A stretch of 64,000 bases of DNA. Origin: Acidobacteriota bacterium (GTDB taxonomy: Bacteria > Acidobacteriota > Terriglobia > Terriglobales > Acidobacteriaceae). How positions within the stretch are numbered: the stretch's first letter is position 1; each line of letters opens with the position of its first letter. The stretch spans positions 496,001-560,000 of the forward strand of contig JACPYL010000012.1 in NCBI GenBank assembly GCA_016196065.1. The letters run 5' to 3'. Shown one piece after another: positions 12,542 to 16,118 of this stretch. The translations under genes were made by a program, and so were the position numbers. The notes under the pieces are model-generated. The model ran no database searches. It had not been told where the DNA came from and worked only from the letters and a program-made list of their open reading frames with translations.

Positions 12542-13074
12542 AGCGGGCACGGATTATTTTACCCCGTAACCTCCGATTGGCATGACTTCACTACGAATTT
12601 GTGATTTGCGGATGTAGGGCGAAGCTTTGCTGTTTCTTGGGCAGAGTTCGGGCACGAAAAAAGGAAGAAATTGGAATCCCCGTGAACGGCACCTCACTGG
12701 GGGAATCAAGAAAGTACAAAGTGGCAGAAACGATCAAAAGCGCATTAGTTTTCGAAGCTGTCCGGCTGCTCGGCTGGGCGTGAGTGGACTTTCCCCTCAT
12801 CCAAATCATCAGCCCGGAGGGCTGACCGACCCTAGCCCAGCGCTTCAGCGCTGGGTAGCCATCAAGTGGATGAATCAAGTCCCGGAGGGACGGCTGACGG
12901 TACCCGCTCTTTACTTCCCAATCTGAGCACAGGAATCAAGATCGTAAAAAGTGGGATAACCGATTCAAAGCCTGAGGCATGCTGCCTGAACCGAAGTCAG
13001 TTCTAAGGTCAAAGTGGGACAGGCAGGTTCCGCGAACCAAGGGAGTTAACATCATCCCGTCCCGGAGCTCGGCG
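12542..13074. other. Intergenic stretch with dispersed-repeat hairpins
   Basis: No convincing gene lies in these 533 bases; the short open frames lack ribosome-binding sites and family features. The stretch holds an exact palindrome (arms CCCAGCGCT/AGCGCTGGG, 12836-12855) flanked by two short hairpin-like motifs around CCCGGAGGG and TCCCGGAGGGA. Similar sequences recur elsewhere in this window, which suggests dispersed repeats rather than a regulatory leader. Confidence 0.6.
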
Positions 13075-13641
13075 TCACTCCCGTCCCACTCCTAGCGCAT
13101 CCGCGACCCGATTGATGTAGTTGAACCAGGACGCAATCAGCGTGATCTGAAGAATCGCCTTGTCGTCAAATCCCACGCCGCGCAAGCCTGCGTGATCCTC
13201 TTTCGAGACCTTCGTTGCATCCTTCGTGATCTTCACCACGTAGTCCAACATGAGGCGTTCCTGCGGCGTGATCGGAGCAGTCATGTAGTCGCGCTCCAGC
13301 GCCTCCACCATTTCTTTGTCTAAAGTCACGCGACGCAGAAACTCTGCGTGAGACTCGATTCAATACACGCACCGGTTGGTCACCGAGACCATGGTCGCGA
13401 TCATTTCGTGATGCCGTCGTTCCAGCGGCAGGTCCGGAGACATCAGCGACCCAAACGTGGCGAACGCATGATAAAGAGCCGGCGGAATCAGGGAGTGCGA
13501 TTCCACGATCTGCGCCCCACCACCTTCGGAAGGATGCACCGGCGTCGCATATTCGACGGGATAAAGGTGCCGTTGTCCCTCAGCCGCGCGCCGCAGTTCC
13601 TCATCCGCTTCCGCCAGCGGAATCGTTTTGATCCAAGCCAT
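13075..13641 (-). CDS. Peroxidase-related (AhpD/CMD-family) protein with in-frame UGA: candidate selenoprotein
   Basis: Two same-frame open segments (13641-13363 and 13359-13075) are separated by one TGA at 13360-13362. Read through, they make a 188-residue protein that aligns end to end with the uncharacterised peroxidase-related branch of the carboxymuconolactone decarboxylase/AhpD fold. The family active site is CxxC in an N-x-C-x-YC context; here it reads NRCVY-UGA-IESHAEF, so the UGA (codon 94) replaces exactly the second catalytic cysteine. The downstream part ([28 protein letters not shown]) is well conserved. A hairpin lies 10 nt after the UGA. Selenocysteine insertion fits better than a nonsense mutation. 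Selenocysteine genes are not in this window. The enzyme would reduce peroxides. Confidence 0.8.
13333..13349 (-). promoter_or_regulatory. Candidate bacterial SECIS hairpin
   Basis: On the minus strand ACGCAG-AGUUU-CUGCGU forms a perfect 6-bp stem with a 5-nt loop. It starts 10 nt and its loop starts 16 nt after the UGA at 13360-13362. Bacterial SECIS elements lie directly after the UGA, within the coding sequence, with the apical loop roughly 16-37 nt away and a G among its first loop bases; here G is the second loop base. The match is structural only. Confidence 0.6.
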
Positions 13642-13976
13642 GGTCGACCTGCTCCTGTTCAGAAGTGTCCCGCCCGATGCAGGCGTCCCGAAACCTTACA
13701 CGGGGCCTCCGACAATTGCCAATAGCGCGAAAATGTTAGTCGCCCCGCGATTACTTTTGACCGCGTCCGCCCTACTCCCAATGGAGTCTCCACGCCGTCG
13801 CGGTCGGCGGTAGAATAAACACGGCCTTGTGATCTGGCTCACCGCGCTGCCCGTCGGCAGTCGCTAACTTCATGTGAGCCAGTAGTGTGAGGGCCTGTTT
13901 TCGGCGATTTGTGCTGCCTGCGGTATGCAGTCCATGGCCTCGCACTGCGCCCTGCTGCTACTCCTTGGAGGCTTTG

Positions 13977-15926: not shown

Positions 15927-16059
15927 GGAGAACGAGATTTAACCTCGATGGCGTTTAAGGAAAGTGTCAAGTAGGACAAGAGACGCGTATTCCCCTTGCA
16001 GCAAAGAGACCAGCGACCGCTCCGCTCCGCTCCAGCCGCGGCGCGGCGGCATAGGATAG

Positions 16060-16118
16060 CCCGGCACGTGAGTGCCGGGTAAGCCACGGTACGTCGACAG
16101 GAGTCCGCTTTAGCGGAC
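16060..16118. repeat. Two adjacent intergenic hairpins
   Basis: CCCGGCAC-gtga-GTGCCGGG (16060-16079) and GTCCGCT-tt-AGCGGAC (16103-16118) are both perfect stems. They lie in the 274-base gap between the cupin and response-regulator genes. They look like dispersed extragenic palindromes and have no T-runs. I see no gene in the gap. Confidence 0.6.

Follow-up and report, generated by a model that had tools for sequence, protein, structure and literature searches.

An AhpD-like predicted selenoprotein gene with a nearly invariant SECIS-type hairpin in Acidobacteriota

Background

AhpD-like proteins in which selenocysteine (Sec) takes the second position of the active-site motif (CxxU) have been in print since 2005, and the family discussed here is therefore not new. 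The 2005 report of such COG2128 selenoproteins concerned the Sargasso Sea (PMC1088965); they were described in genomes in 2006 (PMC1794560) and in the GOS data in 2008 (PMC2398784), and a 2026 review lists an 'AhpD-like protein TIGR01926 CxxU' (PMC13188914). That review also gives the constraints expected of a bacterial SECIS element: an apical loop of 3-9 nt that has a G as its first or second nucleotide, a stem of 4-16 bp, a spacing of 16-37 nt and a minimum free energy of -7.5 kcal/mol or lower. For the phylum of interest here, the deep-Sep report counts 3 known selenoprotein genes in the acidobacterium Occallatibacter riparius (PMC12013277), and the string 'Acidobacteri' is absent from the main text of the 2026 review.

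The gene that we describe shares with the published COG2128/TIGR01926 CxxU proteins its TIGR01926 membership, a CxxU motif that ends in a predicted Sec and a SECIS-type hairpin after the UGA. It differs in belonging to a mainly acidobacterial clade with a nearly invariant 17-nt hairpin; the example given in the review is MCB9421940.1. The first-pass annotation of this DNA had pointed to AhpD-like CxxU precedents, which the 2005 paper and the 2026 review bear out, and had suggested that this particular member might be undescribed; with COG2128/TIGR01926 CxxU proteins already in print in those two sources (PMC1088965, PMC13188914), the suggestion holds at most for the present clade. We found no account of that clade in our searches of the literature. 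What appears to be new is this mainly acidobacterial clade, together with the frozen sequence of its SECIS-type hairpin and a single reversion from Sec to Cys.

Results and Discussion

A peroxidase-related gene interrupted by one in-frame TGA

The window, a stretch of 64,000 nucleotides from an Acidobacteriota genome, carries the gene on its minus strand at 13641-13075; the coordinates given by the first-pass annotation were correct, and the strand, which it had left out, is added here. When TGA is read as U, the 188 codons yield a protein of 188 residues with U at position 94, as had been predicted, followed by a terminal TGA (13075-13077). The only in-frame TGA (13362-13360) falls where the CxxC motif of AhpD has its second Cys (NRCVY-UGA-IESH), and the residues around it read NRCVY-U-IESHAEF. 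A Shine-Dalgarno-like AGGAG (13652-13656, minus strand) was read from the sequence 10 nt 5' of the ATG, and a similar motif precedes 75 of the 105 distinct orthologues described below. Calling ORFs mechanically with table 11 returns two, 13641-13360 (93 aa) and 13329-13075 (84 aa), which is the splitting by standard annotation that the first-pass annotation had anticipated. The locus is a clean example, from a major soil phylum, of a predicted selenoprotein broken into two by a mechanical ORF call; routine annotation tends to split such genes in this way, and our results suggest that the TIGR01926 genes of Acidobacteriota merit checking and re-annotation as (seleno)proteins.

Profile searches place the gene product in PF02627 (CMD; 37.7 bits, cut-off 23) and in TIGR01926, the peroxidase-related enzymes (110.7 bits, cut-off 81.8). 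It is not AhpD proper (TIGR00777, 20.4 bits against a cut-off of 191.95), nor is it a member of two related families that NCBIfam names as (seleno)proteins, NF041238 AhpD_rel_CFYUT (57.4 bits, cut-off 175) and NF053654 GroundWater_YciW (37.5 bits, cut-off 310).

Its nearest relatives of known structure are Cys-type peroxidase-related proteins, which belong to the same family by both sequence and fold. An AlphaFold2 model, built from an alignment of 38 rows (one for the window gene, the others for 37 loci drawn from the best 80 of 265 on GTDB contigs), was of moderate quality, with a mean pLDDT of 72.9 and a pTM of 0.67. Its best fold matches were 6k40, 2pfx, 3c1l, 2oyo and 2prr (rmsd of about 6 Å to the top matches; 24-28% identity over the structural alignment), and the same five structures lead by sequence (E values from 9e-22 to 3.6e-17). 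Position 94 aligns with the second Cys of the motif in 2pfx and 3c1l, as the first-pass annotation had proposed, so that these two proteins have Cys where the window protein has its predicted Sec. AhpD of Mycobacterium tuberculosis (1gu9, 1knc) is a distant fold match to the model.

Conservation of the TGA and of the reading frame

Orthologues were collected with queries that carried Cys at position 94, and the searches therefore did not favour TGA at that site. Codon 94 is TGA in all of the first 110 loci, a set made up of the best 30 found in the order (298 genomes) and the best 80 of the 265 on GTDB contigs, and this TGA is the one stop that each locus has within the aligned stretch. A search of 396 genomes of the phylum gave 30 rows in 29 genomes at E < 1e-60, of which 29 have TGA (two of them in G376) and one, in G310, does not. 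Twenty-five further loci from this search brought the set to 135 (L023-L157), and merging identical coding sequences left 105 distinct CDS; the Cys orthologue from G310 (L158) and a locus of only about 40% identity (L159) were excluded. In every one of the 105, Glu79 (13405-13407, 12 residues before Cys91), Cys91 (13369-13371, the first Cys of CxxU), the TGA at codon 94 and His98 (13348-13350, four residues after position 94) are conserved, giving a CxxU motif with an AhpD-type Glu and His.

The protein on the far side of the TGA is also maintained. Median pN/pS relative to the window gene is 0.264 before the UGA and 0.205 after it (n = 104), and the second half is at least as constrained as the first, a mark of purifying selection in these sequences. 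The earlier descriptions of both halves as intact and conserved, and of a chance nonsense mutation at this codon as improbable, agree with these values and with the count of 105. Decay in close relatives, which the first-pass annotation had named as something to look for, is not what they display: they keep the TGA together with an intact and constrained downstream frame.

In 3 of the 49 orthologue-bearing genomes of the order the orthologue is split or frameshifted (L169 in G117, L170 in G116 and L171 in G173), which may reflect assembly errors or decay. Among the best 80 of the 265 GTDB-contig loci, three that are 74-78% identical to the query (L085, L124 and L129) come from contigs assigned to Latescibacterota and Gemmatimonadota bins, reflecting either horizontal transfer or misbinned contigs.

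A single orthologue with cysteine

The alignment of homologues at codon 94, recommended beforehand as a check, uncovered one exception. The G310 orthologue (L158; L172:5461-6012) has TGC at the site and a Thr replacing the first Cys of CxxC, and no hairpin is present at the equivalent place. Searches of the G310 genome found no selA and no SelB above the cut-off; of the top two RF01852 matches scanned there, ARAGORN assigns the best (47.1 bits) to tRNA-Ser and the second to tRNA-Cys. In a tree of 58 hand-chosen loci (59 rows after identical rows and matches of 100 query residues or fewer were dropped), the Cys orthologue nests within the UGA clade, with a fork support of 99/68. We read G310 as a change from Sec to Cys that went along with loss of the Sec machinery, a reading taken from sequence and one for which the long branches in the tree call for care. 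Together, the UGA orthologues, 94 of 105 with one and the same hairpin, and a single Sec-to-Cys reversion with neither the hairpin nor detected Sec machinery make the clade a natural test set. selA was also not found in G036 and G200, whose Cys-type relatives are more distant.

A SECIS-type hairpin frozen at synonymous sites

Downstream of the UGA lies a hairpin, ACGCAGA-GUU-UCUGCGU (13349-13333, minus strand), with a stem of 7 bp and a GUU loop. The first-pass annotation had correctly placed its start 10 nt after the UGA and a G in its loop, and had given the stem 6 bp, one fewer than we count. Measured against the values in the review (PMC13188914), the loop of 3 nt with G first, the 7-bp stem, the spacing of 17 nt from UGA to loop and the energy of -8.8 kcal/mol all lie within the four published constraints. 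That energy was obtained for a 19-nt piece (z -4.0; 2 of 200 shuffles were equally good); folds of 41 nt and 60 nt were not exceptional against shuffles (z -1.25 and -0.01). Within the window the 17-mer has a single exact occurrence, at 13333, and no copy follows the terminal TGA.

Conservation of this element exceeds that of the gene around it. Of the 105 distinct CDS, 94 share one and the same 17-mer, in a set whose proteins range down to about 62% identical to the query. Mean third-position identity is 0.98 over codons 98-103 versus 0.59 over the other 181 codons, and positions 98-102 stand alone among the gene's degenerate codons in that a single triplet accounts for at least 97% of the sequences at each. 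One of these triplets is GCA, used for 10% of the alanines in the rest of the alignment; codon 103 is CGT at 95%, and CGT makes up 8% of Arg codons elsewhere. Among the 11 variants of the hairpin, one loses the A-U pair beside the loop and five lose the outermost pair, and in the other five an inner pair persists as G-U or U-G. No two-sided compensatory change was seen among them, and covariation is hardly testable because the hairpin is nearly invariant.

Such freezing of sequence raises the question of a function beyond SelB docking. We consider it rather unlikely, and put it forward tentatively, that the 17-nt element is a SECIS with a second, sequence-specific reader or an additional regulatory role; in its favour, the hairpin of the UGA-containing paralogue in the same genome (see below), judged by eye, looks different. 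If true, it could provide, for example, a selenium-dependent switch between products of 93 and 188 residues.

A stronger departure would be for the hairpin to have no part in Sec insertion, acting instead on transcript stability or on pausing with regulated termination, with the short product as the main one. A sequence nearly frozen beyond what structure alone needs is compatible with such a role, which we nevertheless judge very improbable and have rejected: the position, loop and energy of the hairpin fit the bacterial SECIS model, the hairpin is absent from the Cys orthologue, the protein after the UGA is constrained, and the short product would be without both residue 94 and His98.

Selenocysteine machinery and its co-occurrence with the gene

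The window's genome (G000; 5.5 Mb in 29 contigs, estimated to be 100% complete) encodes the apparatus for Sec insertion, which the first-pass annotation had set beforehand as the test by which its proposal might fall. Profile searches detected selA (548.8 bits), selB (380.4 bits) and selD (364.2 bits), all above their cut-offs and dispersed in the genome, and the product of selC was recognised as a tRNA-Sec, named SeC by ARAGORN, with anticodon TCA and a score of 67 bits to RF01852. A second RF01852 match in the same genome, at 47.3 bits just above the gathering score, is called tRNA-Ser by ARAGORN, and a match to the covariance model alone is therefore insufficient to assign a tRNA-Sec.

Across the 298 genomes of the order, the orthologue (E < 1e-45) was present in 49 and selA (E <= 1e-60) in 136. 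selA was found in 48 of the 49 genomes with the orthologue versus 88 of the 249 others (P = 6e-18, a value that is descriptive only, since the genomes are related). The sole exception, G211, has a selB of 379 bits, above the cut-off, and a tRNA-Sec, and for this reason a gap in the assembly probably explains its lack of selA. Among the matches listed at E <= 1e-15, with the split G173 copy excluded, selA is present in 30 of the 31 genomes with a UGA-containing paralogue and in 2 of the 27 with a Cys-type row. G074 is the one genome among those listed matches with a UGA paralogue and no selA at E <= 1e-60.

These data bear on whether the UGA might be read as some other amino acid, by near-cognate read-through as Trp or Cys or under a reassigned code. 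Selenium-free read-through is compatible with the sequence, and low-level misreading may go along with Sec insertion. As the main explanation we give it very little credence, with a tRNA-Sec(UCA), selA, selB and selD in the genome and with the only Cys orthologue found residing in a genome without detected selA or a SelB above the cut-off. A reassigned code was rejected, because TGA also serves as the terminal stop in 43 of the 105 orthologues. Least credible of all is a plain nonsense mutation leaving a pseudogene or a truncated 93-residue protein, which we likewise rejected: the two-ORF call and the 3 split or frameshifted copies among 49 speak for it, but it runs against an identical TGA in 105 of 105 distinct CDS, the lack of any other stop within the aligned stretch of the first 110 loci, purifying selection on the half after the TGA and a hairpin frozen at synonymous sites.

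Predicted decoding and active site

Reading the UGA at codon 94 as selenocysteine is the best explanation of the sequence evidence, and we assign it a probability of about 95%. It follows from the conserved UGA and hairpin, the full Sec machinery, the constrained downstream protein and the pairing of Cys and Sec at this position among relatives. The candidate selenoprotein of the first-pass annotation is in this way supported by the conserved UGA, the hairpin and the machinery.

We infer that Sec is inserted in the cell: SelB with Sec-tRNA(UCA) would bind the hairpin, nt 11-27 after the UGA, and the ribosome would insert selenocysteine at codon 94. The product would be a thiol/selenol peroxidase or oxidoreductase of the AhpD-like kind (TIGR01926, CMD fold), with a predicted active site of Glu79-(11)-Cys91-x-x-Sec94-x-x-x-His98. 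The AhpD of M. tuberculosis has the equivalent Glu-(11)-Cys-x-x-Cys-x-x-x-His spacing, with Glu79 presumably at the AhpD-type proton-relay position and His98 at that of the catalytic His. By analogy with AhpD, Sec94 may attack a hydroperoxide or disulfide substrate, and Cys91 may resolve the selenenyl intermediate. Hydroperoxidase activity is a prediction from family and fold, and the natural candidate would be a selenol-based reductase of hydroperoxides or disulfides in which Cys91 is the resolving residue.

Paralogues and gene neighbourhoods

The window's own genome contains a second UGA-containing TIGR01926 gene (C10:724298, L160:1550-2191; 99.9 bits), preceded by an ORF that we take to encode an APC-type transporter. 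Its hairpin, read by eye from the sequence, seems to be different and further downstream. In seven relatives (L161-L167, from G110, G129, G208, G142, G198, G277 and G203), chosen because the paralogue lies near selA, the order selD-selA-selB-AhpD(UGA)-deiodinase-like(UGA) occurs in all seven. To judge from sequence, this cluster unites the Sec machinery with two predicted selenoproteins; a second stop falls close to an end of the matched stretch in the paralogue match of L167 and in the deiodinase-like match of L161. In G095 (L168), too, the UGA paralogue adjoins a deiodinase-like UGA gene. The 4 kb surrounding the paralogue in the window's genome showed no deiodinase-like gene.

Around the orthologue itself, 33 of the best 80 of the 265 GTDB-contig loci have a large, homologous ORF nearby, which is downstream on the same strand in 32 of those 33 and within 120 nt downstream in 7. 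The one member scanned (P0002 from L067, L067:5617-8157) is a fusion of AMP-binding, PP-binding and acyltransferase domains. This large ORF is not beside the gene in the present window. A link to Aas-like lipid repair is possible and is kept as a lead only, because the window's genome has just a 33%-identical homologue, on another contig. Inference of function from gene neighbours was set aside as weak. The neighbours of the gene in the window are ORFs that we presume to be glyA-like and citrate-synthase-like, and two Acido-Lenti-1 RNAs (RF01687) flank it on the minus strand, at 12810-12855 and 16034-16079.
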